Below are positions 974-35,135 of a stretch of DNA of 35,416 bases, piece after piece; positions within the stretch are counted from its first letter, which is position 1; every line of letters begins with the position of its first letter. This DNA comes from Polyangiaceae bacterium (GTDB taxonomy: Bacteria > Myxococcota_A > Polyangia > Polyangiales > Polyangiaceae). Under the pieces are notes generated by a model that searched no databases, was not told where the DNA came from, and was given only the letters and a program-made list of their open reading frames with translations. A program made the position numbers and the translations under genes. The DNA is taken from contig JADLAB010000271.1 in the NCBI GenBank assembly GCA_020848455.1, positions 1 to 35,416 on the forward strand, given 5' to 3'.

Positions 974-3900
974 TCAGCTGTCGACGCTGATCGCGAGCCG
1001 CTTGCGCAGCTCGAAGTACCCGCGCTCGATGGAGAACATCGTGAGCTCGCGGAGCCGGTCGCGCTGGGGCACGGCGGCGCTCGCCTCGTCCGAGGCCTTG
1101 ATCATCTCGCAGGCCACCTCGAGGTCGTGGGCGACGAGGAAGCCGGCGCGGTCGGCGGTCAGATCGACACCGGCGACCCACTTCTTGAGGTCGATGGCGC
1201 CGGACTGCAGCAGCTTCGTGACCGCGCTCGCCAGCTGGTCGCGGGCCGGTCCCTGGATGACGGGATCGATGGCTTGCTGGTTCTCGGTCACCGTCTTGTC
1301 GAACTCGGCGGCGATCGGGAAGCCCTCGTGGATGAGGCGGATCGCGGCGAAGAGCCAGGCCCGGAGGCCGGTCCCGGTGGGGACGAGGTGCCGGATGTAC
1401 AAGCCGGGGCGGTAGTAGACGAGGTGGCGGGCCGCGATGAACGCCGCCGCCTGGATCGGCAGCTCCACGGCGAGCGCGGTCGAGCCGAGCACGATGGCCG
1501 GCGGCCGAGCGTGGAGGAAGGAGATGCCGCCCGGATCGTGCGGATTCTGGAAGGTGAGCGGCAGGTCCATCCCGAGCACACCGCCCGCGTAGTACAGGGT
1601 CTGCGACATCGGGTACGGGTGCATCGACAGGTCGAGCGCGTAGGCGTTCTGGAACCCGAGCGCCTCGAGCGGCTGGGCGTTGCGCGCCATCACCGCCGGC
1701 TCGATGAGGGTGAAGATGGCCGTGACGAGCGGGTCCACGCTCGGGTGCATGAGCACGCGCGCCCACTCGTCGTCGGTGAGCCGCTGCTGCGCCTCGGCGG
1801 CGCTCTCGGCGCGCATGCGCCGGAAGAAGCGCTCCTCGTCGGGCTCCGCGAAGTTCAGGCAGTGCAGCGCCTGACACAGGCACCACGCCGAGTCCGCCTG
1901 TCGCGCCTCGGTGTAGAGCTTGCGCAGCTTGCGGTAGGGCGTCGCGTTGAAGGGGTTCTTGCGGATGACCTGCATCTGCGCCTCGATCGCCTTGTCGAGG
2001 TAGGCCTCGAGGTTGTCGGCGTAGAGGTCCGCGAGCTTGTCGGCGCGCGCCGCGTCTTCCGGGTCGAGCTTCTGCGCGGCCTCGAGCGCGGCGATGCCCT
2101 CGGTGACCTTGCCGAGCTTGTCGAGGTAGAGGCGCCCGAGCCGGTCGTGCACGACCTTGAGGCGCGCCGGCTCGTTCTTCGCCTTGGCGCGCTCGAGCTC
2201 GACGCCGAGCAGGCGCAGGTAGGCCTCGTCGTCACCCCGCTGCTCCGCCACGTCGATGGCCTCGGTGAGCGCCTTGTCGTTGCTCGGGTCGAGCGTGAGC
2301 ACCTGCTCGAAGAACGCTGCGGCCTGGTCGGGGTTGCCGATCTGGCGCGCCGAGACGACGGCCGCGGTGTGGATGTACTTGGCCTTCTGGAGCTTGTCCT
2401 CGACGCCCTCGGCGAGCTTGACGACGACGTCCACGAGCTTGCTCCAGTCCTTCTCCTCGGAGTAGAGCTTCATCAGGCGCGTCAGGATCTTGCGGTCGTC
2501 GGGTCGCTCCTCGAGCGCCGCGACCAGGCTCTTGGCCGCGCGCATCGGGTCCTTCAGCTTGGTGGCGAGCACCTCGCCGATGTCGAGCAAGAGCTGGCTG
2601 CGCTCCTCGCCCTCGGCGATGTCGAGGCGCCGGCGCTTCACGCGCATCACCTCTTCCCACTGCTCGAGCTCGCCGTAGGCCGCCGCGAGCTCGTTGATGG
2701 GCTCGACGGACAGCGTGGCGAGGTCGGCCGCCTCCGACAGGGGCACGAGCGCGGCCTCGGCGTCGCCGGCCTTGCGTAGCGCGCGGCCGTAGTGGAGCAA
2801 GGCCTCGAGCTTGCGCGTCGGGCTCAGGCTCTCGCCGAAGCGGTCGAGTAGATCGCGGTAGAGGTTCGCCGAGCCGGTGGCGTCGTCGGAGTCGAGCCGC
2901 ACGCGCGCCGCCCGCGCGAGCGCGTCGGGATCGTCCGGCGCGAGCGTCAAGAGCGCCTGCACGGTGTTCTGCGCCTTCTCCGTCGAGCCGATCTTGGCGA
3001 GCGAGTCGATGAAGTGGATGAGCACCTGCTTGGCGTCGTCCTTCGGCAGCGATTCTGCCCGGGGCACGACCTGCCCGTAGTGCGTGCTCGCCTCGGCGAA
3101 GCTCCCCGCCTCGAAGGCGAGATCGCCGAGGATCACGTAGCCGCGGAGGTTGGTCGGATCGAGATCGACCGCGCGCTGCGCGCTCTCGCGCGCCTCCTTG
3201 GCGAGGCCGAGCTTCGTGCGCTGCAGCTCGGCGATGTCGCAGTGGAGCCGAGCCTGCGCGAGCTTGCCGTCGGTCTGCCCGATCTCGCGCTCGATGATGT
3301 CGACGGCGCTCGCGGCGTCGCCGCGCGCGAGGTAGGCCGCCCGCAGGGCGTGCGAGGCCGTCTGGTTGCTCGGCTGCGCGTCGAGCGCGCGCCGGTAGCG
3401 CTCGATGGCGCCGTCGCGGTCGCCGTGGTCCTCGAGGATCTTGGCGGCGCGCAGCCACTGCTCGCCGCGCGCCTCGGGGGTCTCGGCCTTCTCGGCGAGC
3501 GACTCCACCGCCGAGAGCGCCGCCAGGGCGTCGCCCGTCTGGGCACGGACGTTGGCGAGCGACTCGAGCGCGCCGGCGTGCTTCGGGTCGATCTCGAGCA
3601 CCTTCTCGTAGGCGTGGCGCGCGCGCTCCGGCGAGCCCACCTGGTCGAGCAGCGTGCGGCCGAGCGCCATGAGCAGCTCGACGCGGCGCGTGTCGGTGGT
3701 GGTGATCTTGAGCGCGCGCTCGTAGAGCAGGATGAGGTCCTCCCAGCGATCGAGGGCGCGGTAGTGGCGCATGAGCGCCGTGAGCGCGCCCTCGTGGGCG
3801 GCGTCGAGCGTGAGCACCTGCTCGAGACACTCGGCGGCCTTCTGGTGATCGAGGAACTCCTCGTCGTAGATGCCCGCCATGCGCTCGTGGAGGTTGATCT

Positions 3901-6325
3901 TCTGGCGCGGCGTGGCCGCGACCGCGATCTGCGCCCGCAGGTTCTCGAGCAGCTCGTCGTAGCGACCCTTGCGGTTGAGGATGCGGTCGACCGCGCGCAG
4001 GGCCGTCAGCATGCCGGGGTCGAGCGCGAGCGCCGCCTTGTAGTGCTTCTCGGCCTCGACGAGGTCGTTCAGCTGATCCTCGTAGATGTCGCCGATGCGG
4101 CACAGGATCTCGCTGCGGGGGCCACCCGACAGAGCCTCGGCCTGGCGCGCGAGGATCTTGGCGTAGCCGGCGTAGTCGTTGTCGCGCTGGTAGATGCGCG
4201 CCAGGGCGTCCACCGTCTTCTGGTGGCCCGGGTCCTCGCGCAGGGTCTGCTCGTAGAGCTCGCGCGCGCGACCGGCGTCGCTGAGGCGCGTCTCGAGAAT
4301 GTCGGCCGCCTCGGCGCGGAAGTCGCGCGCCCGGTCGGGCGTGGCCGCCCGGTCGACGCGCATCAGCAGCACCACGACGAGCTCGGCCCACTGCTGAGCG
4401 CGGCGGTAGAGCTGCGCGAGCCCCTCGAGCGCGCCCTCGTTGGCCGGGTCGACCTTGAGCACGGCCTCGAAGCACGGCAACGCGAGGTCGGGGCGCGCGA
4501 CCTTCTCGTTGTACCAGGCGCCGAGGCGCGTGAAGAGCGACACCTTGACCTCGGGCGGCATGCGCGGGTGCTCGCTCACCTGATGGAGCGTGCGCATGGC
4601 CTCGGCCCAGTAGGTCATGTTGGTGCCGGCCGCACGCTCGAGGTCGGTCGCGTAGGTCTCGTTCTGGATGTCCTGCGCCAGGGCCTGCGCGAAGGCGTAG
4701 ACGGCCTGCTCGGGATCCTCGAGCGGCCCGGCGTAGAGTCGGCCGATCTTGTGCAGGGCGCCGGCGCGCTCGCTGTGGCTCTCGCTCTTCTCGCTCTGCT
4801 CGAGGAGGACTTCGACGAGCTCGTCGTACTTCTCCTGCGCGCGGAGCGCGGTCTCGAAGCCCGCTCGCGCGACCTCGTCGGTCGCATCGATGTCGAGCAG
4901 CCACTTGAAGATCTCCTCGCAGCGGGCGGAGTCCTTCAGCACCGACTCGAAGAGGCGCGCCGCTCGGAACAGGAGCGCCTTCTTCTGGTCGCGCGCGCGG
5001 TCTTGCGCCGCCTCTTCCATCGCCTCGCCGACGGCTCCCTCCGCCTTCTCGGCCGCGGCGCTGCCCGCCGCCTCGATGTCCACCTGGTCGGCGGCCATGA
5101 GGAAGGCCTCGGCGATGGTGATCGGTGCTGCGCCCTGCTCGAGCGTGAGCTCGAGCGCGATGGCGGCCTCCACGTCCGTGGGGTCGGCGACGAGGGCGTC
5201 GATGCGCTCGTTGACCTCTTCCTCGGTGATGGTCTCCTTGCGCTTCTCCTTGGTGCTCGGCGCCACCAGCTCGGCGACGCTCGCGACGCTCGGCCGGCGG
5301 CTCGGCTCCTTGTCGAGCAGGCGGGCGCAGAGATCCCCCAGCTCGCGCGACACCCAGCCGCGCGGCGCGACCTCGGCGAGCTCGGGCGGCGCCTTGGAGA
5401 GCAGGGCGACCGCGAGATCCGCGCCCGCGGCCTCGCCGAAGGGCGGCTTGCCGCTCAGCACCTCGAACAGGAGCTCACCGAAGGCGTAGAGGTCCGACCG
5501 CGGCGTGGCCGGCTGGCCCTTGAGCTGCTCGGGCGCGAGGCCGCGCAGGCCGCCTGGCGCCTCCGCCACGACATCGGTGCGAAACAAGAGGTCGCTGCCG
5601 ACGTCGACGAGCAGGGCGCGCGGCGTGCCGTCCGCGGCCTTGGTGACGAGCACGTTGTCGAGCTTCACGGCGCCGTGGGGCAGGCCCCGCTCGTGCAGGG
5701 CACCGAGCGCGCCGAGCACGCCGCCGAGCAGGACGCGCGCCTCGTTCAGGTGCAGGGCGCCCGTGCGCCCGATGCGCTTCGACAGCGGCTGGGCGTCGGG
5801 CGCCTCGTAGGCGACGTACGGCACGCTGCCGACGAAACCGGCGGCGAGCTTGCGCGGCAGGGTGTCGTGCACCACCCGGGCCGCCAGGCGCACGCGCGTG
5901 AGGTAGCGCTGCACCGCCCCGCGGTGGCTCGCCGCCGCGCCGTGCAGCACGCGCACGAAGCGGGCCTCCTCGCCCTCGGTGACGGCGTAGACCGTGGCGT
6001 GGGGCCCCGCGCCCACGCGGCGCACGACCCGGTAGGGGCCGAACTCTTCGCCGACCTTGAGCTCGACCGGGCCGCCGAGGAGCTCCGCGACGACGCGCGC
6101 GAGCTTCGGCGAGGCGTCGCTCTTCGTGCTCGTCACCGCGTCGACGAGCGCGCCGAGGGCGTCCCTGTCGCGGCAGCGCTCGGTGAGCGCCCGCGCGTAG
6201 GACGCGCTCGACGCACCGCCGCCGACGCTTGCAGGGTCGAGGCCGAGCAGTTCGGTCGAGAGTCCCTGCATCTCCTCGAGCGTGAAGAGGCGCTCGAGCT
6301 CGCCGCGGATGAATTCGATCGACAT
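974..6325 (-). CDS. Giant TPR protein with N-terminal pseudokinase domain
   Basis: 1783 residues. The start at 6325 is set by AGGAG a few bases upstream and the sequence MSIEFIRGEL. Residues about 93-300 fold like a Ser/Thr kinase: glycine loop VGAGPHATVY (104-113), HGAVKLDN (217-224), DVG (241-243), APE (264-266) and SDLYAFGELLFEVLSGKPPF (277-296). The ATP-anchoring Lys is Arg125 (VRVL in place of VKVL), and HRD has become HGA, so the catalytic Asp is Ala219. It should be a pseudokinase, though the DxG Asp, Lys221 and Asn224 remain and might still bind nucleotide. From about 380 to 1560 there are many TPR units (repeated patterns such as YEKVLEIDPKHAGAL). The last 220 or so residues form a conserved-looking non-TPR domain. 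No signal peptide is visible, so it is probably a cytoplasmic scaffold. It diverges from the ftsB-like gene. Substrates and partners are unknown. Confidence 0.88.
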   Translation of the reverse strand: MSIEFIRGELERLFTLEEMQGLSTELLGLDPASVGGGASSASYARALTERCRDRDALGALVDAVTSTKSDASPKLARVVAELLGGPVELKVGEEFGPYRVVRRVGAGPHATVYAVTEGEEARFVRVLHGAAASHRGAVQRYLTRVRLAARVVHDTLPRKLAAGFVGSVPYVAYEAPDAQPLSKRIGRTGALHLNEARVLLGGVLGALGALHERGLPHGAVKLDNVLVTKAADGTPRALLVDVGSDLLFRTDVVAEAPGGLRGLAPEQLKGQPATPRSDLYAFGELLFEVLSGKPPFGEAAGADLAVALLSKAPPELAEVAPRGWVSRELGDLCARLLDKEPSRRPSVASVAELVAPSTKEKRKETITEEEVNERIDALVADPTDVEAAIALELTLEQGAAPITIAEAFLMAADQVDIEAAGSAAAEKAEGAVGEAMEEAAQDRARDQKKALLFRAARLFESVLKDSARCEEIFKWLLDIDATDEVARAGFETALRAQEKYDELVEVLLEQSEKSESHSERAGALHKIGRLYAGPLEDPEQAVYAFAQALAQDIQNETYATDLERAAGTNMTYWAEAMRTLHQVSEHPRMPPEVKVSLFTRLGAWYNEKVARPDLALPCFEAVLKVDPANEGALEGLAQLYRRAQQWAELVVVLLMRVDRAATPDRARDFRAEAADILETRLSDAGRARELYEQTLREDPGHQKTVDALARIYQRDNDYAGYAKILARQAEALSGGPRSEILCRIGDIYEDQLNDLVEAEKHYKAALALDPGMLTALRAVDRILNRKGRYDELLENLRAQIAVAATPRQKINLHERMAGIYDEEFLDHQKAAECLEQVLTLDAAHEGALTALMRHYRALDRWEDLILLYERALKITTTDTRRVELLMALGRTLLDQVGSPERARHAYEKVLEIDPKHAGALESLANVRAQTGDALAALSAVESLAEKAETPEARGEQWLRAAKILEDHGDRDGAIERYRRALDAQPSNQTASHALRAAYLARGDAASAVDIIEREIGQTDGKLAQARLHCDIAELQRTKLGLAKEARESAQRAVDLDPTNLRGYVILGDLAFEAGSFAEASTHYGQVVPRAESLPKDDAKQVLIHFIDSLAKIGSTEKAQNTVQALLTLAPDDPDALARAARVRLDSDDATGSANLYRDLLDRFGESLSPTRKLEALLHYGRALRKAGDAEAALVPLSEAADLATLSVEPINELAAAYGELEQWEEVMRVKRRRLDIAEGEERSQLLLDIGEVLATKLKDPMRAAKSLVAALEERPDDRKILTRLMKLYSEEKDWSKLVDVVVKLAEGVEDKLQKAKYIHTAAVVSARQIGNPDQAAAFFEQVLTLDPSNDKALTEAIDVAEQRGDDEAYLRLLGVELERAKAKNEPARLKVVHDRLGRLYLDKLGKVTEGIAALEAAQKLDPEDAARADKLADLYADNLEAYLDKAIEAQMQVIRKNPFNATPYRKLRKLYTEARQADSAWCLCQALHCLNFAEPDEERFFRRMRAESAAEAQQRLTDDEWARVLMHPSVDPLVTAIFTLIEPAVMARNAQPLEALGFQNAYALDLSMHPYPMSQTLYYAGGVLGMDLPLTFQNPHDPGGISFLHARPPAIVLGSTALAVELPIQAAAFIAARHLVYYRPGLYIRHLVPTGTGLRAWLFAAIRLIHEGFPIAAEFDKTVTENQQAIDPVIQGPARDQLASAVTKLLQSGAIDLKKWVAGVDLTADRAGFLVAHDLEVACEMIKASDEASAAVPQRDRLRELTMFSIERGYFELRKRLAISVDS

Positions 6326-24849: not shown

Positions 24850-27078
24850 TCACGCGAGCCCCGCGCGGCGGCGCACGATCCAGTGCCCGCCGAGCAAGAG
24901 CGCGGCCACGAGCGCGGCGAGCCACGGCGGCACGAGCGCGCGCACGTGCCGCTCGCTCAGCACCTGCTCGGCCTCGGGCAGCGGCAGCTCGTCGATGCCG
25001 TCGAGACCGAGCGCCACGCCGCCCGTGGCCCGGGCGATCGCCGCGAGCCGGGCCGGATCCGGCCGCGGGTCTGCCCACTCGTCACCGCCGGCCTCGCAGG
25101 CGAAGTCGTAGCGGCTCGGCGCCGCGCGGCCGTCGGCGAGCTCCACCTTGACCGAGTAGCCACCCGCCTCGAGCTTGCCGAGCGAGAGCGGCGCCGCCTC
25201 GTCGCCGGTCGGCAGTGTCACGTCCACCCTGTGCACGAGCTCCCCCGAGCCCATGCGGGTGACCTCGACCTTGGCCTGCGCCCCGTCGCCGAAGGCGGAG
25301 CGGAGGCGCAGCCTCGCCTCCTCGCCGGCGAGGCACGGCGTGGCGAGATCCACGACGGCGGGCTCGAAGCGCGGATCGCGCATCAGCCACCCGAGCAGGG
25401 CGTCCCAGAAGGCCCCGTGCGCCCGCCCCGAGGTCTCGGCCGCGAAGGTGCTGAACAGGAGCCGGTGAGCGCCGTCGACCGTGAGCGCGATGCTGCGCCC
25501 GTTCTTGTACTCGCCGAGCGCCAGCACGGGCATGGCCTTGCCGCTCGACGTCTTGCGCGTCGGATGCTCGACGAGCGCGGTCGCCCCGGGGCGCAGGTCG
25601 CCCACCACGTTGGTGCCGGGCATGGGCGGCAGGCCCGGTCCGAGCAGCCCGCGGAGCGGCCCGAGCACAGGCGCGCGCCGGCCCGCGGCCGTCACGACGG
25701 GCTCGAAGGTCGCGAGGTCGACCGCGTCCTTCTGCGCGATGCCGTCGAGCGTGACGGGCAGCACCGAGGCGAGGGCCGTGCGCCCGTAGTGCCCCGAGAC
25801 GAAGGCGTTCGGGCCGCCCACCATGATGAGCCCACCGCCGTTCTTCACGTAGCTCGCGAGCGACGGGAGGTGGCGCGTGAGCCCGTAGGGCTCGGCGTCG
25901 AAGTCCTGCAGCACGACCGCGTCGAAGGAAGGCAGGTGGAGCGTGAAGAGATCGTCGACCGGGAACTTGATGAGCGCGAGCTCGTCACCGACCGCGTTCA
26001 CCTGGTCGGTCGGCGTGCGGAGGATGAAGAACGCGACGAGATCGACCGAGGCGTCGCTCTTGAGCCAGGTGCGCAAGGCGCGCGTGTCGTAGGTCGGGCG
26101 ACCCGCGACGTGGAGCAGGCGCACGCGGTCGCGTGTCACGTCGAGCGTGAGGTAGCGCCGGTCGTTGCCCGGGATCTGGTCGCCCGGCTGGGGGTCGATG
26201 CCGATTTCGAGGATGCGCTTGCCGGCCCGATCGAGCGTCAGCTCGAGATCCACGACCCCACGGCCGTCCTGCACGCGCGCCTTGCCCGAGGCGCGCAACA
26301 GGGCGGGACCGTCGTGGTGCAGCTCGCGCGCCGTGATGGGCAGCTCCCCGCAGACCATGCCGCCGGTACAGGCCACCTCCACGGCGAGCCGGAGCGGCTG
26401 GTGGGCGACCGCGGCGCCGGCCGCCCGCACCGTGCGCACGGCCGCGTCGACCGGCTCCCTGCGAGCCACCGCCACGGTATGAATCGGTACCTCGAGGGGC
26501 GCCGCGGCCGCTCGGGCCGCCGCGCCTGGCTGCTCTTCGCCCGGGCGGTCGAGGCGGCCGTCGCTGACGACGACGAGGGCGTTCGGTGGCTCGTCGGTCG
26601 AGGTGGCGACGGCACGGAGCGCTGCGCTGAGGTCGGAGGCGCGCTCCGGTGGCACGTCGAAGCGCGGCGCGCGCGGATCCTCGAGCACCTTCGGGGCGCC
26701 GTCGCCGAAGGTGAGCGCGCGCAGGCGCACGCCCGCGAGCCGCTCGCCGAGCGCCGCGAGAGCCTGGGCGGTGGCCGCGCGACGGCTGTTGCCGTCGTCG
26801 CCGGGCAGGTCCACGGACCGCGATGCGTCGACGAGCACCGCGACGGCCGGACCAGCGCTCGTGCCGCGGGTGTGGATGCGCACCGGGCGCAGCACCGCGA
26901 CGAGGAGCGCGGCGAGCGCGAGGACGCCGGTGGCGGCCACCAGCCCGGCCCGCGCGCCGGAGTCGCGCTTGCGCCACAGCTCGAGGAGCAGCAGCCCGAG
27001 GCCGAGGCCGGCGAGCACGCACGCGGCGACCACGTAGGGCAGCGCGAGGTCGGCCGAGAGCGCGAAGCTCGAGCTCAC
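24850..27078 (-). CDS. Membrane protein with VWA and GATase-like domains
   Basis: 742 residues from a GTG at 27078 that overlaps the DUF4159 stop as GTGA. There are two N-terminal membrane helices (about 13-34 and 44-64) and one near the C-terminus (LAALVAALLLGGHWIV). A von Willebrand A domain follows the N-terminal helices, with an intact metal-site motif DASRS (84-88) and a later VVVSDGRLDRPG. The central part carries a class I glutamine amidotransferase-like fold (VRLLHVAGRPTYDTRALR, FDAVVLQDFDAEPYG, YVKNGGGLIMVGGPNAF) without an obvious catalytic Cys at the expected turn. Proteins of this build sit with DUF4159 proteins, DUF58 proteins and MoxR ATPases in many bacteria; MoxR and DUF58 are absent here. 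The role is probably assembly or regulation of an envelope complex; the exact function is unknown. Confidence 0.85.
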   Translation of the reverse strand: MSSSFALSADLALPYVVAACVLAGLGLGLLLLELWRKRDSGARAGLVAATGVLALAALLVAVLRPVRIHTRGTSAGPAVAVLVDASRSVDLPGDDGNSRRAATAQALAALGERLAGVRLRALTFGDGAPKVLEDPRAPRFDVPPERASDLSAALRAVATSTDEPPNALVVVSDGRLDRPGEEQPGAAARAAAAPLEVPIHTVAVARREPVDAAVRTVRAAGAAVAHQPLRLAVEVACTGGMVCGELPITARELHHDGPALLRASGKARVQDGRGVVDLELTLDRAGKRILEIGIDPQPGDQIPGNDRRYLTLDVTRDRVRLLHVAGRPTYDTRALRTWLKSDASVDLVAFFILRTPTDQVNAVGDELALIKFPVDDLFTLHLPSFDAVVLQDFDAEPYGLTRHLPSLASYVKNGGGLIMVGGPNAFVSGHYGRTALASVLPVTLDGIAQKDAVDLATFEPVVTAAGRRAPVLGPLRGLLGPGLPPMPGTNVVGDLRPGATALVEHPTRKTSSGKAMPVLALGEYKNGRSIALTVDGAHRLLFSTFAAETSGRAHGAFWDALLGWLMRDPRFEPAVVDLATPCLAGEEARLRLRSAFGDGAQAKVEVTRMGSGELVHRVDVTLPTGDEAAPLSLGKLEAGGYSVKVELADGRAAPSRYDFACEAGGDEWADPRPDPARLAAIARATGGVALGLDGIDELPLPEAEQVLSERHVRALVPPWLAALVAALLLGGHWIVRRRAGLA

Positions 27079-27890
27079 GGCTGGCCCAGCGCGCGCCGCC
27101 GCATGAGGAACGGCGCGTGCACCTGGTCGTCCTTGTAGTTGGAGCAGAGCAGGTACATGGCGATGTTGACGGCGAGGCGGATCGCGAGCTCGCGCTGGCG
27201 CGCGCCGCCCGGCACGACGTCGATCGTCTCGACGCCGCCCGCGCCGCGGGCCAGCGCGCCGAGCAGGTCGTGCGCCGTGAGGATCACCTGCACGGCGCCG
27301 CCGCGCACGATGGCCTCGAGCTTGGGCGTTCCCTCGATGCGACCGATGGCGCGGCGCAAGAGGTAGAAGCTCCGGAAGATCACGTTCTCCGGGCCGATCT
27401 CGATGGGCGAGGCGTCCGGCAGCACGCGCGTGATCTCGCGCTTGGCGCCGCGCGCGAAAGCGCCGCGCTCGGGCTCGAAGTCGTCGCACAGGAGCAAGCC
27501 GCCGAGCGCGATGAACTGGCGCAGCCCGCGCACCTCGCGGCGGCTCAGGGGGTCGGGATCCTTGTGGCTGGCCCAGACCACGAAAGGCTCCGCGAGCAGT
27601 GCAGGGTCGTCGGCGCGCACGGTGGTGGGCGACAGGCGCGCGGGCGCGCTCGTGCGGCGCATGAGCTCCTCGCTCCAGCGCGCGGGGGCCGTCGTGCGCG
27701 CGCCGCGCCACTCGTCCGTTCCGGTGAGCAGGATGCGAGGGTTGAAGGCGCCCTCCTCACCGAACGCTCGGGCGACGCGCGGGCTCGCGCACAGGCTCGC
27801 GGCCGCGAGGAGCAGGTGGCGGCGCCCGAGGCGGGGCGCCGCGGCGTTCCCCGAGGTACGCGCCTGGGTGGCGGGTCGCGGGGCGCGCAT
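27075..27890 (-). CDS. DUF4159 domain protein, possibly Tat-exported
   Basis: 271 residues. The N-terminus has a twin-arginine-like signal: RLGRRHLLLAAASL with a following small-residue stretch and likely cleavage near ARA (about residue 42). The mature part has the DUF4159 pattern, including NPRILLTGTDEW, FVVWASHKDPDPLS, LRQFIALGGLLLCDDFEP and ELAIRLAVNIAMYLLCSNYKDDQVH. DUF4159 resembles a GATase-like fold and travels with VWA membrane proteins. The ATG at 27890 shares its A with the upstream stop (TGATG), and its own stop overlaps the next start, so three genes are translationally coupled. The periplasmic location follows from the signal; the biochemical role is unknown. Confidence 0.85.
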   Translation of the reverse strand: MRAPRPATQARTSGNAAAPRLGRRHLLLAAASLCASPRVARAFGEEGAFNPRILLTGTDEWRGARTTAPARWSEELMRRTSAPARLSPTTVRADDPALLAEPFVVWASHKDPDPLSRREVRGLRQFIALGGLLLCDDFEPERGAFARGAKREITRVLPDASPIEIGPENVIFRSFYLLRRAIGRIEGTPKLEAIVRGGAVQVILTAHDLLGALARGAGGVETIDVVPGGARQRELAIRLAVNIAMYLLCSNYKDDQVHAPFLMRRRALGQP

Positions 27891-28546
27891 CAGTCGAAGT
27901 CGTCCACGTACCACACGCCGTCCTCGCGCCGCAGCACGACGACGTGCCCCGGCAGGTGCACGGTCGCCTGATCGCCGGTGACCTCGACGCGCAAGGCGTC
28001 GGGCTCGGCGAGCCCGTCGACGAGCGAGCGCAGATCGCTCTCGATGGCGCTGCGCGTGCGGGGCGACAGCAGCCGCAACAAGGCCGGGTAGCTGCGGCGC
28101 GCGAGGCTCCGGCGCAGCTCGGCGAGCGCCTGCACCGGGGTGCGCGCGGCCGCCGGGAGGGCGTCGACCGCACCGACGCGGAAGCCGCCGCCCTCGAGCG
28201 CCAGGCTCACGATCTCGCCGTCGCCGTAGCGCACCTCCGCGTGGGCCTGCACCACGCGCTCGGGCGAGGCGATGCCCTTGACGTGGTCGGCGAGCTCCTC
28301 CTTCTGCTCGGTGAGCACGCGCAGGAGCTCCTCGCGCGACACGGCGCGCTTGCTCTCGGCGCTCATGAGCTCGTAGAGCGCGTCGGCGTCGCCGCGCCGC
28401 AGCGCGTCCTCGTAGGCGACGACGACCGGCTCGGCCGGCGGTACCGGTGCGACCCCGCCGCAGCCCGTGACCGCCGCGACCGCGGCAAGAGCGAGCGGCC
28501 AGGGCGCCGTGAGACGAAGCGGTCGCGCGAGGGACGAGGGGGACAT
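27890..28546 (-). CDS. Lipoprotein, first gene of the VWA/DUF4159 operon
   Basis: 218 residues. A hydrophobic signal (APWPLALAAVAAV) ends in the lipobox VTGC. The mature part starts PVPPAEPVVVAYEDALRRGD, a pattern common in NTF2/SnoaL-like folds, where a helix carries pairs of acidic residues after a linker. It ends HVVVLRREDGVWYVDDFD, again like the last strand of such folds (xGWRIDDF). Two similar halves may be present (YEDALRRGDADALYELMS and LRRSLARRSYPALLRLLSP), which suggests a duplicated module; this is inference from the spacing. There is only a weak ribosome binding site at 28546. It is divergent from the lipoprotein gene at 28720. Confidence 0.78.
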   Translation of the reverse strand: MSPSSLARPLRLTAPWPLALAAVAAVTGCGGVAPVPPAEPVVVAYEDALRRGDADALYELMSAESKRAVSREELLRVLTEQKEELADHVKGIASPERVVQAHAEVRYGDGEIVSLALEGGGFRVGAVDALPAAARTPVQALAELRRSLARRSYPALLRLLSPRTRSAIESDLRSLVDGLAEPDALRVEVTGDQATVHLPGHVVVLRREDGVWYVDDFD

Positions 28547-28719
28547 CGAGCGGCTCGGCTCTTGGTAGCGCGACGCCCGCCCCCTGGCTAGTACGGCCGG
28601 CCGGAAGCTCGCATGGCCCCCGCCGCGGCCGAGCAGCCGCGCGGACCATTCGCCAAAGCCCTCGGGTGAGGTAGGCTAGCCGCGACCCGGAGCACGGCCG
28701 ACCGCGCCGCCCCGGACCG

Positions 28720-29211
28720 ATGACCATGCCCCGCCACAACGAATTCCGAGCCATCCTCTTCTCCACGCTCTTGCCCCTCGCGCCCGCGCACCTGCTCGGC
28801 TGCGCGGGCTCGCAGGCCGGCCACGGCAGCGAGGACCTGCGCCCCGTGGACGAGGCGCGGGCGGTCGCGGTCATCGACGAGGCGCTCACCGCCCAGCACC
28901 TCACGGTGGCCCCGGGCGCCGACGTCGCCTCGCCGGACGGCGACGTGCACGTCGAGCTCTGGGTCGAGCAAGGGTACGGCATCGCCTACGTCACCGAGCT
29001 CGAGGACCAGAAGTCCGGGGGCAAGCTGCCGAAGGCCAAGGGGCGCGTGCTGCCGCTCTTGCGGGTCGAGGGCGACCGTACCGTGCTCGTGCTCTACGAT
29101 CGCGACTACCAGTACGACGCGGGCAAGACCCACAGCTCGACCGCGCTCACCGCGGAGCTGAAGCTCAAGCGCGACGTCACGGACTTCGCGCTCCAGGTCG
29201 TCAAGAAGTGA
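28720..29211 (+). CDS. Lipoprotein, unknown function (163 residues)
   Basis: A signal segment (FRAILFSTLLPLAPAH) ends in the lipobox LLGC with Cys28 lipidated. The mature domain has alternating strands rich in charged residues (DGDVHVELWVEQGYGIAYVT, VLPLLRVEGDRTVLVLYDRD) and ends in a helix-like ALQVVKK. ATGs at 28720 and 28726 are both possible; neither has a strong ribosome binding site. The next gene starts within its stop (GTGA), so the two are translationally coupled. The family is not recognised; the beta-rich domain and location suggest an outer-membrane or periplasmic accessory protein. Confidence 0.75.
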   Translation: MTMPRHNEFRAILFSTLLPLAPAHLLGCAGSQAGHGSEDLRPVDEARAVAVIDEALTAQHLTVAPGADVASPDGDVHVELWVEQGYGIAYVTELEDQKSGGKLPKAKGRVLPLLRVEGDRTVLVLYDRDYQYDAGKTHSSTALTAELKLKRDVTDFALQVVKK

Positions 29212-29504
29212 GCACGCCGGCGCAGCGGCCGCCCCGCACGCGCGAGCGCGGGCCCGCAGGGGCCGGCGCACCGGGCGGCAGCACGCCGACCGCGACATCG
29301 GCGTCAGGGTCGACCGGCTCCGAGCGCGAGCGGCGGCTGCGCATCGCCATCGCGGCGGCGGCCCTCGTGGCCACGGCGGGGCTCGGCATCGTGGGCACGA
29401 CGGCCTCGACGCTCGGCTCGGCGCTCGTGCTCCTCGGCACGATCGCGCTCATGTACGCCATCCATCGTTTCGGAAGGCTTGGCCCCGACGCGGACCCGCT
29501 CTAG
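29208..29504 (+). CDS. Small membrane protein, 98 residues
   Basis: The GTG at 29208 overlaps the stop of the lipoprotein gene by four bases. The first 40 residues are Pro/Gly/Ser/Thr-rich and disordered. Two membrane helices follow, roughly IAIAAAALVATAGLGIVG and LGSALVLLGTIALMYAIH, separated by only a few residues, so the helices form a hairpin with both ends on the same side. The tail is GRLGPDADPL. No enzymatic motif is present. Coupled translation suggests it works with the lipoprotein before it. The family is unknown. Confidence 0.65.
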   Translation: MSTPAQRPPRTRERGPAGAGAPGGSTPTATSASGSTGSERERRLRIAIAAAALVATAGLGIVGTTASTLGSALVLLGTIALMYAIHRFGRLGPDADPL

Positions 29505-29645
29505 AGATGAGCGGCACCGTCGCCCGGCATGTCCGCTCTCGCGGGCACGATTCTGGCTAGGCCGGCGGCGGGCGCCGCACTTCACAGGGGCCGGGACCAG
29601 TCGCCTCCGCCCCGCCGCGCCGCAAACCAGCAACACGAGGTCGAG

Positions 29646-30536
29646 ATGCGCACCAGTGGCTCGCTTCCGGTCAGGTCCGACGCGCCCATGGCGTCCGCGA
29701 GAGCTTCCGCTTCGAACGGCGCGCGGCGGGTGCGCTTGCGCGCGCGCCCCGCCTGCATGCTCGGCGCTGCCGCCACGGTCCTGCTGCTCGCCGCCGGCGC
29801 GGCGCAAGCCCAGCCCGCACCGACGGCCACGCAGCCACCCCCGCCGCCGCCGACGGCCGTGCCGGCGCCGCCCCTGCCCACCCAGCCGCCACCGGGCCAG
29901 CCGCCGCCCGGCGCACCTCCGACGGCACAGCCGCAACCCCCGGGCGCGCCTCCGCCCGCCGGGCCGCCGGGACCGCCCGGCGCCTACCCGCCGCCGAGCG
30001 GCTACCCCCCGGCGCCACCCTACGGCCCCCCGGGCTCCTACCCGCCGTACGGACCGCCCCCCTCGGCGCCTCCGACGGCGCGACCCGCCACGCCGGCCAT
30101 GCCGGCGCTCCCACCGCCGAACGAGCTGCCGTACGACGAGTCCCAGCCCATCCCGCCGGGCTATCGGCTCGACTCGCACCCCCGCGTCGGGCTGATCATC
30201 GCCGGCTCGGTCACGTTCGGGGTGCTCTACCTGTCGTCGGCCCTCGCGGCCTCGCTCATCCTCGACACGAGCTCGGGCGATGGCGAGCGGGGCGCGCCCC
30301 TCTACGCGCCCGCCATCGGGCCGTTCATCGCGATGGGCACGCTGAAGACGAGCGCCACCGGCAAGTTCGGCCTCGTCATCGACGGGCTCGGACAGGTCGC
30401 GGGCGTCGCGATGTTCGTCGCGGGCTTCGCCGCCCCGTCGCAGAAGCTCGTGCGCAACGAATACTTCACGGCCGACATCCTGCCCACCTCGCTCGGCGAG
30501 GGCGCGCCGGGCCTCGGCATGGTCGGGGAGTTCTGA
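29646..30536 (+). CDS. Proline-rich exported protein with C-terminal membrane helices
   Basis: 296 residues. The start at 29646 has GAGG nine bases upstream. The signal peptide has a long basic n-region and probably ends AGAAQA near residue 55; a shorter form could begin at Met38. Residues about 57-155 are Pro/Gly/Tyr/Ala-rich with PPPG, YPP and YGPP units, an extended linker. After PYDESQPIPPGYRLDSHPRV come hydrophobic stretches (VGLIIAGSVTFGVLYLSSAL, then APAIGPFIAMGTL, then DGLGQVAGVAMFVAGFAAP) that form two or three membrane helices. This layout is frequent in Myxococcota as paralogous proteins of unknown role. apt follows two bases after its stop, so they form one transcription unit. Confidence 0.78.
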   Translation: MRTSGSLPVRSDAPMASARASASNGARRVRLRARPACMLGAAATVLLLAAGAAQAQPAPTATQPPPPPPTAVPAPPLPTQPPPGQPPPGAPPTAQPQPPGAPPPAGPPGPPGAYPPPSGYPPAPPYGPPGSYPPYGPPPSAPPTARPATPAMPALPPPNELPYDESQPIPPGYRLDSHPRVGLIIAGSVTFGVLYLSSALAASLILDTSSGDGERGAPLYAPAIGPFIAMGTLKTSATGKFGLVIDGLGQVAGVAMFVAGFAAPSQKLVRNEYFTADILPTSLGEGAPGLGMVGEF

Positions 30537-30538
30537 GC

Positions 30539-31120
30539 GTGCGCATCGATCCGAGCTCCCTCGCCTCGGCGCATGCCCGCGCGTATCTCGAGTCGCGGCT
30601 GCGCACGGTGCCGGACTTCCCCAAGCCCGGCGTGATGTTCAAGGACATCACGCCGCTGCTCGCCGACACGCGCGCGCTGCACATCGCCCTCGACTTGCTC
30701 GCCGAGCCGTTCATCGGCGAGGGCCTCTCGTACATCGTCGCGATGGAGGCGCGCGGCTTCATCTTCGGCGGCGCGCTCGCGGCGCGCCTCAACGTGGGCT
30801 TCGTGCCCGTGCGCAAGCCCGGCAAGCTGCCCGCCGACAGCGACGCCGTGTACTACGCGCTCGAGTACGGCGAGGGCGTCCTGCACATGCACAAGGGCTC
30901 CGTCTCGCCGGGCAGCCGTGTCCTCATCGTCGACGATCTGCTCGCGACGGGGGGCACGGCCGCAGCCGCCGCGGAGCTCGTGCACAAGCAGCGCGGCATC
31001 GTGGCCGGCTTCGCCTTCGTGGTGGAGCTCGACTTCCTCGCGGGCCGCAAGCGCCTCGCGACCGCGACGAGCCAGGGCACGCTCGTGCACTCGCTCATCC
31101 GCTTCCCGGCCGAGGGCTGA
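30539..31120 (+). CDS. apt: Adenine phosphoribosyltransferase
   Basis: 193 residues. Apt salvages adenine with PRPP to give AMP and pyrophosphate. Family motifs are clear: LRTVPDFPKPGVMFKDITPLL at the N-terminus, EARGFIFGGALA (70-81), PVRKPGKLP (90-98), the flexible loop region YYALEYGEG and the PRPP loop VLIVDDLLATGGTA (128-141). The length is slightly above the usual 170-180. It starts with GTG three bases after the previous stop, without a separate ribosome binding site, so translation is probably coupled to the proline-rich membrane gene. It is convergent with the gene ending at 31130. Confidence 0.96.
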   Translation: MRIDPSSLASAHARAYLESRLRTVPDFPKPGVMFKDITPLLADTRALHIALDLLAEPFIGEGLSYIVAMEARGFIFGGALAARLNVGFVPVRKPGKLPADSDAVYYALEYGEGVLHMHKGSVSPGSRVLIVDDLLATGGTAAAAAELVHKQRGIVAGFAFVVELDFLAGRKRLATATSQGTLVHSLIRFPAEG

Positions 31121-31129
31121 AGGCGCCCG

Positions 31130-32287
31130 TCACGGCACGCCCCGGCGCCCGAGCGCGTCGGCGAGCGCGCTCGCCGCGCTCGTGGCGCGCCGCGGACCGC
31201 CCGCGGGAAAGGCGAGCACGACGGGGCCGGCAGGGTCACCCGCGTCCGCGGGCGGCGTCGACGGCGTGCCGAGACTGGCGCCGAACGGCGCGGCCACGCG
31301 CTCGAGCGTCGACCGGTCGAGCTCCGCCGCGCGCCCGAGGAGCGCCTCGAAGGTGAAGGCGCGCGTCGGGGGCTCGCGCAGGGCGCCCCCGAGGTGCCCG
31401 GCCGCGTAGAGCAGCGCAGCGCCCGCGCGCGCCGCGTCCGCGCCGAAGTACCAGGCGCCGATCTCGTGGCCCCCCGCGTGCGCACAGGTCGCGTAGAGCG
31501 CGGCCGCGTCCGCGGCGAGCTCGCGCACCGTCTGCTCGGCCCACGCGACCATCGTGGGCCGACCGCGCGGCTCGAGGAACACGTCGACGTAGCCGCCGCG
31601 CAGCTCGAGCCGCGCGTACTCGGTGGCGGCCTCCGGCGCCTCGGCCGGCACCGGCGCGGCGGACGCGGAATCGACGGCCGCGAGCACCGCACCGGCATCG
31701 CGCAGCTGCCCCGCGGGCGTCACCCGCGCGCCGAGCGCCGCGGCGAGCGAGCTCGGCTGCTTCGCCCGCGCGAGCCACAGCTCGACGACCCATCCTTCCG
31801 TATCGAGCGGTCCGAGTGAAGCACCCGCGCGCAGGCGCGCCGTCGCTGCCTCGCAGACGCGCGCGGTGCGAGCCTGGGCCTGCTCTGGAGTCTCGGGCGT
31901 GCTGGCCGCCACCGACGCGCTCGCTGCCGCGCCGGAGCCGAAGAAGCTCGAGCTCCGCAGGCCGAGGTAGGCGGCCACGCCGAACGCCGCCAGCGCCGCG
32001 AGCTGCAGCAGCGTACGCCACGGCACCGGTCCTGCCGCCCCGCGCGCCGGATCTTCGGCCGCGCGGCGGGCGCTCAGCAGGCGCGTCGCGATCATCTCCG
32101 CGCGCTTGCGCCGCGCGGTCGGCGGCAGCAGGGCCCACTGCTCGACCCAGTCGTCGAGATCGACGGCGACGATGGTTCCGAGGCCGTGCAGCTCGGCGGC
32201 GCTGCCGCGCACGGCCACCGAGGCGGCGACCCCGCGACGACCGAGCGCCTCGGTCACGGCCTGCTCGATCTCGGTCGCTGCGCCCAT
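31130..32287 (-). CDS. Hypothetical single-pass membrane protein
   Basis: 385 residues from the ATG at 32287 (GGTGGTGG just upstream); the frame stays open for another 33 codons, but that part overlaps the divergent gene and has a poor start. The N-terminal 90 residues are cytoplasmic with a DLDDWVEQWALLPP segment and a basic patch (ARRKRAEM), followed by a membrane helix at about 91-110 (RTLLQLAALAAFGVAAYLGL). The outer part, about 275 residues, is Ala-rich and helical with scattered cysteines and HAGGHEIGAWYFGADAARA. No catalytic motif is recognised. Its start is 97 bases from the start of the divergent lipase-like gene. Confidence 0.72.
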   Translation of the reverse strand: MGAATEIEQAVTEALGRRGVAASVAVRGSAAELHGLGTIVAVDLDDWVEQWALLPPTARRKRAEMIATRLLSARRAAEDPARGAAGPVPWRTLLQLAALAAFGVAAYLGLRSSSFFGSGAAASASVAASTPETPEQAQARTARVCEAATARLRAGASLGPLDTEGWVVELWLARAKQPSSLAAALGARVTPAGQLRDAGAVLAAVDSASAAPVPAEAPEAATEYARLELRGGYVDVFLEPRGRPTMVAWAEQTVRELAADAAALYATCAHAGGHEIGAWYFGADAARAGAALLYAAGHLGGALREPPTRAFTFEALLGRAAELDRSTLERVAAPFGASLGTPSTPPADAGDPAGPVVLAFPAGGPRRATSAASALADALGRRGVP

Positions 32288-32384
32288 CCACCACCGCCGT
32301 GCCCACCACCCGGCCAGGGCCTCGGGGTGAGCCGACCGCAGAGTATCACCCCCGCGGTCCCGCCTGTGCCATCCTCGTGCGCCC

Positions 32385-33512
32385 ATGTCGACGAGCCGCG
32401 CGTATCTCTCGCCCGGGATGTTCGGATTCGCGGAGCTCGCCGCGTACGCCTACTTCGAGCACCTCGCGACCGCTCTGCGCCGACGCTACGCCAGGCGTGG
32501 TCGCACGCTCGAGGTGCGCGTCTGCGAGGTTCACCCGACGTCGTCCGTCCGACGGCGCGCGGCCACGCTCGCCGAGATGATCGCGCACACGAGCGGCTCG
32601 AGCACCGATCCCATCCACATCCTCGGCCACTCGACGGGCGGGCTCGACGGCCGCCTCGTGGCGTCGCCGAGCGTGCACCTCGACCAGCGCAGCAACCGGC
32701 AGCTGGGCTGGCGCGCGCGCTTGCGGTCGGTGACCACCCTGTCGACGCCGCACTACGGCACGCCGCTCGCCACCTTCTTCGCGACCGCGAAGGGGCAACG
32801 ACTGCTCTACGCCATCTCGGCGCTCACCGTCGCCGGCCTGAAGCTCGGCTCGCCGCCGCTCGCCGCGGCGAGCGCGCTCGTCGCGGCGCTCGGCCGCACG
32901 AGCGAGAGCATCGGGGTCGAGTTGGCGCTCGTCGACCGCATGACCGAGGGCGTGGTCCGGCTGCTCGACGAGGCCTCGGGCCGAACGCTGCGCAGCTGGC
33001 TCCGGCAGGTGCGCGACGACCAGGGGGGCATCGTGCAGCTGATGCCCGAGGCGATGGATCTCTTCGAGGCCGGAGTCGAGGACCGGCCCGGTGTGCGCTA
33101 CCAGTGCGTCGCCGCCTACGCTCCCATCCAGGGTCCGATCGACTGGATGAGGGCGGCCCGGTCGCCGTGGCGCGCGCTCTCCGGCGTCATCTTCAACGCC
33201 CTCGCCCGGATCACGGGGCGCCTGGATGCTCGCTACCCGTGCGCCCCCCAGGACGGCCGGGCCGACGGCATTCTGGCGCGCGCCCTCGGCGCCGTGCCCC
33301 CGGCGGATGCGAGCGACGGAGTCGTGCCGCTGCGCTCCCAGCTCTGGGGCGAGCTCGTCTGGGTCGGCCTCGGCGACCACCTCGACGTCGTCGGACACTT
33401 CCCGGGCCCGGACGGCCACACCGACTGGCTCGCGAGCGGCGCGGGCTTCGACGGTGCCCGCTTCGACGCGCTCATGGACCGGGTCGCCGAGGGCATGTGG
33501 CTGAGCGAGTGA
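32385..33512 (+). CDS. Alpha/beta hydrolase, lipase-like
   Basis: 375 residues. The nucleophile elbow is GHSTGG with Ser83 at its centre, preceded by DPIHIL as the strand. Asp311 (ASDGVVPLRSQL) and His332 (GLGDHLDVVGHF) are good candidates for the acid and base; His338 is the alternative. STPHYGTPLATFFA after the elbow resembles the STPHxGS region of bacterial triacylglycerol lipases, which act on long-chain esters. There is no obvious signal peptide, so it may work inside the cell or be exported by another route. The start at 32385 has a weak ribosome binding site. Substrate preference cannot be read from the sequence. Confidence 0.85.
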   Translation: MSTSRAYLSPGMFGFAELAAYAYFEHLATALRRRYARRGRTLEVRVCEVHPTSSVRRRAATLAEMIAHTSGSSTDPIHILGHSTGGLDGRLVASPSVHLDQRSNRQLGWRARLRSVTTLSTPHYGTPLATFFATAKGQRLLYAISALTVAGLKLGSPPLAAASALVAALGRTSESIGVELALVDRMTEGVVRLLDEASGRTLRSWLRQVRDDQGGIVQLMPEAMDLFEAGVEDRPGVRYQCVAAYAPIQGPIDWMRAARSPWRALSGVIFNALARITGRLDARYPCAPQDGRADGILARALGAVPPADASDGVVPLRSQLWGELVWVGLGDHLDVVGHFPGPDGHTDWLASGAGFDGARFDALMDRVAEGMWLSE

Positions 33513-33763
33513 CGCGGCGGTCGGGATACGCGGCGCGTCACGTCGCCGACGTGCTCCGGTGAGCCTCGCGACGACGCTCGTGCGTCCGCTCCAGTGCCGC
33601 GGAGCACCCTTGCCTCGCGGTCGCGGCGACGCAGCTCGCATCGTCGCCCCGCATCGTGTAAAACCGCCCGTCGCGCCCCCCGGTTCCGGCCCGGGGCGCG
33701 ACGCGCTCGCCGCCTCCCACGGGCGGTCGCGGAGCGCAGCCCCCGCCGGGAGGAGTTCACCCC

Positions 33764-34540
33764 ATGCGTCTCGCCTTCGTGGTTCCCGCCGCCGCATTCG
33801 CCTGCGCGCTCGGTCTCGGGTGCGACAAGAACAGCCAGGACCCGAACGACCCGTCGACGATGCCCCCGGGCTCGTACCAGGGCGGGACCTACCCCGGCAG
33901 CTACCCGGCGGGGACCTACCCTGCCCCTGGCAGCTACCCCGGCGGCACGCCCGGTGGGTACCCCGCCCCCGGCGGCTACCCGGCCCCGGGCGGCTATCCC
34001 GCCCCCGGCGGCTACCCGGCTCCCGGTGGCTACCCCGCTCCGGGCGCGCCGCCCGCGACGGCGCCGGCGCCGTCGAGCCCGTTCCCGTTCCCGATCCCCG
34101 GCATGCCCGCGCCCGACGCCGGCTCCTCCGGCGGCAGCGCCCAGGCGTTGCCGGGTGGCGCGCTCATCGTGGTGCAGCCGCTCCTGCAGGGCATGGCGGC
34201 CCAGGAGGCCGCCGGCATGAGCCCGGAAGGCGGCGCGTTCGGAGCCAACTTCCAGCCGGGGCAGACGCTCGAGCAGCCCTTCCAGCTCCAGGCCGGCCGG
34301 TGCTACGCGGTCGTCGGCGCCGGGATGGGCGTGACGCAGCTCGACCTGCAGATCGTGATCCAGCAGGCCCCGCTGCCGCCGTACGTCGCGGCGCAGTCGC
34401 AGTCGCAGGGCGCGCAGGCCGTGCTCGGCGGCCGCGGCAACTGCTTCAAGAACCCCCTGCCGATCGGCGGCCCCGCCAAGGTCGTCATGAAGGCCGCGGC
34501 GGGCGCAGGCCTGGCGGCCGCTCAGATCTACGTCAAGTGA
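33764..34540 (+). CDS. Lipoprotein with GGYPAP repeats and a C-terminal paired-Cys domain
   Basis: 258 residues. GGGAGGAG before the ATG gives a strong start. The signal ends in the lipobox LGLGC (Cys20). Residues 35-95 are Pro/Gly/Tyr-rich, with five exact GGYPAP units at 64-93 forming an extended stalk, followed by a Pro/Ala/Ser linker. The last 126 residues form a domain that recurs in the next gene: LEQPFQLQAGRCYAVVGAG, VTQLDLQIVIQQAPLP, QAVLGGRGNCFKNPLPIG and KVVMKAAAGAGLAAAQIYVK. Its two cysteines (in GRCY and GNCF) are kept in both copies and may form a disulfide. The domain looks beta-rich, like a small jellyroll or immunoglobulin-type fold; I do not recognise it. Seven bases separate it from the second copy. 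Confidence 0.85.
   Translation: MRLAFVVPAAAFACALGLGCDKNSQDPNDPSTMPPGSYQGGTYPGSYPAGTYPAPGSYPGGTPGGYPAPGGYPAPGGYPAPGGYPAPGGYPAPGAPPATAPAPSSPFPFPIPGMPAPDAGSSGGSAQALPGGALIVVQPLLQGMAAQEAAGMSPEGGAFGANFQPGQTLEQPFQLQAGRCYAVVGAGMGVTQLDLQIVIQQAPLPPYVAAQSQSQGAQAVLGGRGNCFKNPLPIGGPAKVVMKAAAGAGLAAAQIYVK
33953..34042 (+). repeat. Five 18-bp in-frame repeats encoding GGYPAP
   Basis: Five consecutive 18-base units within the lipoprotein gene. Codons vary in third positions (GGC/GGT/GGG, CCC/CCG/CCT, TAC/TAT), so the peptide is kept more strictly than the DNA. Confidence 0.9.
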
Positions 34541-34547
34541 GGACACC

Positions 34548-35135
34548 ATGAAGCGTGCACAGAGCTTGGTTCTGGTTGGGGCGGCCTTGCTGGTCGTCGC
34601 CGCGGGCTGCAAGAAGGAAGAGCCGCCGGTGGTGCCGACTGCCGCGCCGCCTCCCACCTACACGGCGCCGCCGGCGACCACCCCGACGCCCGCGCCCGTT
34701 CCGACCCCCGACCCGAACGCGGCGGGCGGCATGGCCACACCGGTGCCTGCGACCGGCGCGACGATGGCCCAGCCCCTGCTCGACGCGCTCGTCGCCAAGG
34801 AGGTCGTCGGCATGACGCCGGACGGCAGTGCCTTCGCGGGCAACTTCCAGCAGGGCCAGATCCTGGAGCAGCCGTTCCAGATCCAGCCCGGCAAGTGCTA
34901 CACGGTCGTCGGCGTCGGCGTCGGCATCACCCAGCTCGACGTGCAGATCGTGCTGCAGCAGCCGCCGCTGCCGGCCGTGACCGCCGCCCAGTCGTCGACG
35001 AGCGGGCCGCAGGCCGTGCTCGGTGGCAAGGGCCAGTGCTTCAAGAACCCGTTCCCGATCGGCGCGCCCGGCAAGGTCGTCATGAAGGCGACGAGCGGCG
35101 CCGGTCTGGCGATGGCGCGGATCTACATCAAGTGA
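34548..35135 (+). CDS. Lipoprotein paralogue with the same C-terminal domain
   Basis: 195 residues. The ribosome binding site GAGGACACC precedes the ATG at 34548. The signal ends in the lipobox VAAGC (Cys21), followed by KKEEPP. A Pro/Thr/Ala linker (about 25-65) replaces the GGYPAP stalk of the upstream copy. The C-terminal domain matches it residue by residue over about 120 positions: AFAGNFQQGQILEQPFQIQP, GKCYTVVGVGVGITQLDVQI, QAVLGGKGQCFKNPFPIG and KVVMKATSGAGLAMARIYIK, again with the two conserved cysteines. The pair arose by tandem duplication and is surely one operon. Function unknown; surface or periplasmic ligand binding is one possibility. Confidence 0.85.
   Translation: MKRAQSLVLVGAALLVVAAGCKKEEPPVVPTAAPPPTYTAPPATTPTPAPVPTPDPNAAGGMATPVPATGATMAQPLLDALVAKEVVGMTPDGSAFAGNFQQGQILEQPFQIQPGKCYTVVGVGVGITQLDVQIVLQQPPLPAVTAAQSSTSGPQAVLGGKGQCFKNPFPIGAPGKVVMKATSGAGLAMARIYIK

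Follow-up and report, generated by a model that had tools for sequence, protein, structure and literature searches.

Protein kinases are unusually abundant in myxobacteria, and we know of no function for most bacterial pseudokinases. Among the described systems, the DYD kinases have no αC glutamate and carry an arginine, and an aspartate has been proposed as replacement of the αC glutamate (PMC12599244). The pseudokinase scaffolds EssB/YukC and MviN resemble the protein described here in that a dead kinase fold would serve assembly in bacteria; they differ as membrane proteins for which TPR or pseudo-peptidase parts are not reported (PMC12599244). EADs are small adaptor domains that are thought to work through homotypic contact (PMC7159879). 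The window analysed in this study, a stretch of 35,416 nucleotides, is one entire contig of a 9.2-Mb Polyangiaceae genome, and the host group are soil-dwelling myxobacteria. It codes for a protein of 1783 amino acids, for which no description was found in the open-access literature of PMC. From sequence and structural models we favour the reading of a conserved cytosolic scaffold of Polyangiales, with an assembly module and two disabled enzyme folds arranged around a TPR solenoid. The following features were assigned:

974..6325, minus strand: whole gene, 1783 aa, with EAD7-like domain, pseudokinase, TPR solenoid and pseudo-M48 domain
6074..6325, minus strand: six-helix EAD7-related domain, residues 1-84 (Pfam EAD7 PF19960, AF2 model)
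5261..6049, minus strand: kinase-fold domain, residues 93-355, predicted pseudokinase (Pfam Pkinase, AF2 model)
5951..5953, minus strand: Arg125, in place of the ATP-anchoring β3 lysine (orthologue alignment)
5894..5896, minus strand: Arg144, at the position of the αC glutamate (orthologue alignment)
5669..5671, minus strand: Ala219, in place of the catalytic HRD aspartate (orthologue alignment and tree)
5591..5605, minus strand: Asp241-x-Gly-x-Asp245, the retained DFG aspartate and an extra conserved aspartate (orthologue alignment)
1814..5005, minus strand: TPR solenoid, approximately residues 441-1504 (Pfam TPR models)
977..1811, minus strand: C-terminal domain, approximately residues 1505-1783, predicted inactive M48-like metallopeptidase (AF2, hhalign)
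1415..1429, minus strand: dead zinc motif R1633-H-L-V-Y1637, at the HExxH of M48 (profile alignment)
1151..1165, minus strand: D1721-L-T-A-D1725, at the third zinc ligand (ExxxD) of M48 (alignment to EITCDRAGLLCCGD of an intact M48)

Orthologues matched the gene product in start and full length. The reading frame is open as far as 6964; the start at 6325 is supported because the orthologues begin with the same methionine. On the plus strand of 974-6325, the compared frame was interrupted by stops and a comparable protein was absent. Against a sister with 97 % identity the gene is under purifying selection with an overall dN/dS of 0.109, a value that rules out a pseudogene. No transmembrane stretch was present in the 1783 residues, the best 19-residue Kyte-Doolittle mean being 1.58. 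The TPRs over more than 1000 residues claimed by the first-pass annotation were recovered, with Pfam TPR matches spanning approximately residues 440-1440.

The kinase fold is clear. Pfam Pkinase (PF00069) covered residues 98-350, its 66.6 bits exceeding the cut-off of 31.7, so the profile search proposed earlier for this region was positive; the AF2 model of residues 1-370 had a pLDDT of 92.5, and PknA matched its kinase part with a Z-score of 30.6 and 2.2 Å over 259 residues. The likeness to Hanks-type bacterial Ser/Thr kinases (PknA, PknB, StkP) thus extends over the whole domain, the difference being the loss of the β3 lysine, the αC glutamate and the HRD aspartate and the position within a TPR scaffold. 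Translation and alignment placed Arg125, Ala219, Lys221, Asn224, Asp241-Val-Gly243 and A-P265-E266 as annotated at first pass; that inventory of the active site had overlooked the loss of the αC glutamate (Arg144), which was absent from all 75 full-length orthologues. A shifted αC glutamate was rejected, since an acidic residue at 139-146 occurred in just one of 75 sequences, and likewise a relocated lysine of the WNK type, the Gly-rich and β2 stretch of the window protein being free of lysine. The β3 position was occupied by lysine in 65, arginine in nine and leucine in one of the 75 orthologues, the HRD aspartate position by Asp (42), Ala (18), Asn (14) or Thr (1), and the HRD arginine position by glycine in 72. 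The DFG aspartate, Asp241, was kept in 73/75, and the window protein retains both this residue and the catalytic-loop asparagine, Asn224. Lysine, αC glutamate, HRD aspartate and DFG aspartate were kept in 40/40 control kinases, which were other kinases of the same genome chosen by BLAST rank.

With the DYD pseudokinases (PMC12599244), the window protein shares the exchange of lysine by arginine, the absent αC glutamate and the retained catalytic-loop asparagine. It differs by the additional loss of the HRD aspartate, by a D-V-G-S-D (D-x-G-x-D) instead of a DYD motif, by the lack of a transmembrane part and by its host, a member of the Myxococcota. Asp245 could take over the role of the αC glutamate as proposed for the DYD kinases; it was present in 64/75 sequences, including all nine rows with Arg125. 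By analogy with the DYD kinases and POMK, the family may be an atypical active transferase in which orthologues that keep the HRD aspartate modify a substrate, e.g., by phosphorylation. Lysine, HRD aspartate, DFG aspartate and asparagine are together retained in 31/75 sequences, which may be active by such an arrangement, and the DYD family itself lacks the αC glutamate and has the arginine (PMC12599244). However, the window protein is also devoid of the catalytic aspartate, the HRD arginine is replaced by glycine nearly throughout and the second aspartate of the DYD type is located at a different position, so we regard the transferase as unlikely.

The family is widespread in the order. A match at E ≤ 1e-200 was present in 47 of 59 relatives from its genus, family or order; the nearest named relative was a groundwater Myxococcales MAG (L050) with 97 % identity over the full length. 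The 75 full-length orthologues came mainly from Polyangiales and included Sorangium cellulosum, Polyangium, Minicystis rosea and MAGs labelled Labilithrix and Sandaracinaceae. A wider search of the phylum gave matches in 16 of 140 genomes, all of the same class, an upper bound because TPR relatives devoid of the kinase are among them. Some genomes (G007, G008, G017, G022, G023) had two or three diverged kinase-TPR copies.

In a tree computed after removal of the kinase columns, the HRD aspartate was absent (Ala or Asn) in 24/24 members of the clade of the window protein and present in 42/51 sequences outside it; nine changes between Asp and non-Asp were needed overall. A lesion of one strain is ruled out by the loss throughout the clade. 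The two substitutions highlighted at first pass differed in their conservation: the loss of the HRD aspartate was clade-wide, while arginine at 125 was found in just 9/75 sequences, these being the window protein, its sister genome and seven scattered others, which marks Arg125 as recent or recurrent. The sequences that keep all four catalytic residues were without exception outside the clade, hence full inactivation appears to be lineage-specific, and the aspartate kept in most orthologues outside the clade suggests that the family ancestor was probably less degraded at the active site. According to the alignment, a degraded active site is a family-wide trait and full inactivation would have been fixed in one clade. 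The description as catalytically dead hence holds for an impaired domain beyond one strain and does not extend to the 31 sequences outside the clade. The pseudokinase is thereby placed in a large family with ordered motif losses, the αC glutamate family-wide and the catalytic aspartate clade-wide, which allows the role of the kinase fold to be compared before and after the loss of catalysis.

Selection differed along the chain. Against the 97 % sister, constraint was strongest in the C-terminal domain (dN/dS 0.035), followed by the TPR part (0.09), the kinase domain (0.27) and the N-terminus (0.33). The ratio of kinase to TPR dN/dS was 1.07-3.04 in lineages without the HRD aspartate and 0.57-1.49 in lineages keeping it (p = 0.016), a comparison of 12 independent pairs (4 vs 8) and thus a small sample, with some synonymous distances near saturation. 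Where the aspartate is missing, the kinase domain evolved at about double the pace of the TPR part, a pattern that loss of function explains no less well than a binding role under strong selection. The kinase domain of the clade may accordingly be vestigial, a folded spacer drifting after the loss of catalysis, with the work done by the TPR solenoid and the pseudo-M48 domain. Kinase dN/dS values of 1.1-3.0 times those of the TPR part, against a ratio of about 1 in Asp-keeping lineages, are consistent with it, as are paralogues in the genome that consist of TPR and the same C-terminal domain and lack the kinase. On the other hand, dN/dS of the kinase domain was 0.12-0.59 across the few pairs, and the fold motif residues H217, P265, D278 and R344 were present in 75/75 sequences. 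Since these residues are invariant and dN/dS is well under 1, the kinase domain seems to be maintained, and a mere spacer is possible though doubtful. In the reading we favour, the kinase domain probably has an accessory role under relaxed constraint.

The first-pass annotation had also proposed that the pseudokinase could sequester active Ser/Thr kinases or activate them, the activation being considered here as allosteric. More than 100 kinase-domain matches in the genome offer potential partners, and back-to-back dimers occur in some bacterial kinases and in the MviN pseudokinase (PMC12599244). The analysis added nothing in support: a conserved kinase neighbour was missing among the commonest neighbour families of related loci, and conservation along the chain is lowest in the kinase domain. 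We consider this mode of action improbable.

The C-terminal domain, described at first pass as conserved-looking with 220 residues, is indeed conserved and has a length of about 265-280 residues. Sequence searches of Pfam, including M48 (PF01435), and PDB gave nothing significant. The AF2 model from 68 sequences, opened by helical repeats, had a pLDDT of 95.5 and a pTM of 0.93. Zincins recurred among the fold matches (ZMPSTE24, Ste24p, BepA, SPRTN, selecase, jannalysin), each single match being weak (Foldseek E > 0.5; Z 5.4-6.3, the middling range of the tool). In hhalign, the domain aligned to M48 peptidases of relatives over 166 columns with an E-value of 4.4e-5; with two control profiles the E-values were 0.19 and 0.56, and the M48 match was no weaker once the TPR part had been removed. 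An HMM search of 9291 ORFs returned, beyond the family itself, 21 matches, 15 of them M48 peptidases, with LRQWFRRAEITCDRAGLLCCGDLEAA of an intact M48 as strongest local match; as the ORF set was enriched with fetched M48 loci, this result presents a ranking and not a database-wide E-value. The HExxH motif was absent in 68/68 sequences, with never a glutamate at 1634 and never a histidine at 1637; invariant in 68/68 were W1716, D1721, D1725, R1726, R1757 and R1774. The case for M48 is thus one of profile comparison and motif register. With the M48 metallopeptidases (PF01435; ZMPSTE24, Ste24p, BepA) the domain shares the profile alignment of about 166 columns, the motif register and zincin-like fold matches, and it differs by the missing HExxH and by aspartate in place of the third-ligand glutamate. 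We classify it as a divergent M48 (zincin) metallopeptidase without HExxH, predicted to be inactive; the formerly unannotated domain would on this view represent a myxobacterial family of inactive M48 peptidases.

The same C-terminal domain was seen in proteins of 510-1603 aa at L004 (C163), L007 (C652), L008 (C172) and L207 (C589, a weak match), and HExxH was not found in the stretches read of these four. A kinase-less TPR protein of 3787 aa (L202, G000:C76, 3386-14749) also ends in the pseudo-M48 domain, and comparable giants in relatives have open reading frames of about 3790-3990 aa. L008 and L202 have retained glutamate at the position of the third ligand.

The N-terminal domain had been overlooked at first pass. 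In the AF2 model, residues 1-84 fold into six helices (pLDDT about 90-98), and EAD7 (PF19960) matched 21 of 25 orthologous N-termini. The window protein scored 20.5 bits, under the Pfam cut-off of 32; orthologue L109 scored best with 34.6 bits, over the cut-off. The top profile match in PDB was the p75NTR death domain, a weak one (E 0.25). The likeness to EAD7 is that of a small all-helical N-terminal adaptor with profile matches in most orthologues; differences are one copy of the subtype per genome, the lack of a conflict operon and scores under the Pfam cut-off for most family members. A second copy of this EAD subtype was found neither in the own genome nor in six others. The single copy per genome argues for self-association of the N-terminus rather than pairing with a partner copy. 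One distant EAD7 protein was present in the same genome: a product of 415 aa (L206, G000:C606, 1982-3229) scored just over the Pfam cut-off for EAD7 and combines this domain with a low-complexity linker, a hydrophobic stretch and an end rich in Cys.

The adaptor-like N-terminus, the repeat scaffold and the broken kinase and metal-protease domains suggest that the protein probably serves to assemble other proteins, with no catalysis of its own. In the proposed mechanism, the EAD7-related N-terminus would self-associate, the TPR solenoid would recruit clients, and the groove of the pseudo-peptidase would hold, but not cleave, a peptide or protein. The pseudokinase would be an accessory part, regulatory or structural, less constrained after catalysis was lost, and may still bind a nucleotide via Lys221, Asn224 and Asp241. 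The earlier idea of a scaffold using the kinase fold for binding is thus kept for a large TPR scaffold with an impaired kinase, and weakened in the binding role by the fast evolution of the kinase domain. A more specific version, a widespread signalling hub of two dead enzymes with EAD7/death-like assembly domain, pseudokinase, about 1000 TPR residues and a previously unrecognised inactive M48 domain, seems slightly more probable than its opposite. This M48 domain is the most conserved part and also forms the end of at least four other proteins of the genome.

The divergent neighbour in the window codes for a methylmalonyl-CoA mutase; next come rpsB, tsf, an ABC ATPase, moaA, a glnD-like gene, a TPR gene, parB, parA, tig and holA; the annotated neighbours are housekeeping genes. 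Related loci had often DivIC, an MshEN protein and the mutase on the divergent side (21-25 loci) and T2SS genes on the convergent side (15-18 loci), which looks like a stable chromosomal order. Neither a partner nor a conserved operon that would indicate what is scaffolded emerged from the window or from related loci. These surroundings bear on a role as adaptor of an EAD-type conflict (immunity) system, in which EAD domains co-occur with catalytically disrupted kinases (PMC7159879). The second copy of the EAD subtype was absent in the seven genomes searched, the neighbours are housekeeping, DivIC, MshEN and T2SS genes, and the protein is broadly present across the order; an immunity function is therefore very improbable. 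A defence-system kinase was rejected, as the PADLOC matches (PD-T4-6, mad6) were mostly on the kinase domain and looked generic. Elsewhere in the window, positions 27893-35132 held a run of predicted genes with almost no Pfam matches, and an otherwise unassigned ORF of 953 aa on the minus strand (24853-27711) contained a GATase1-like region.
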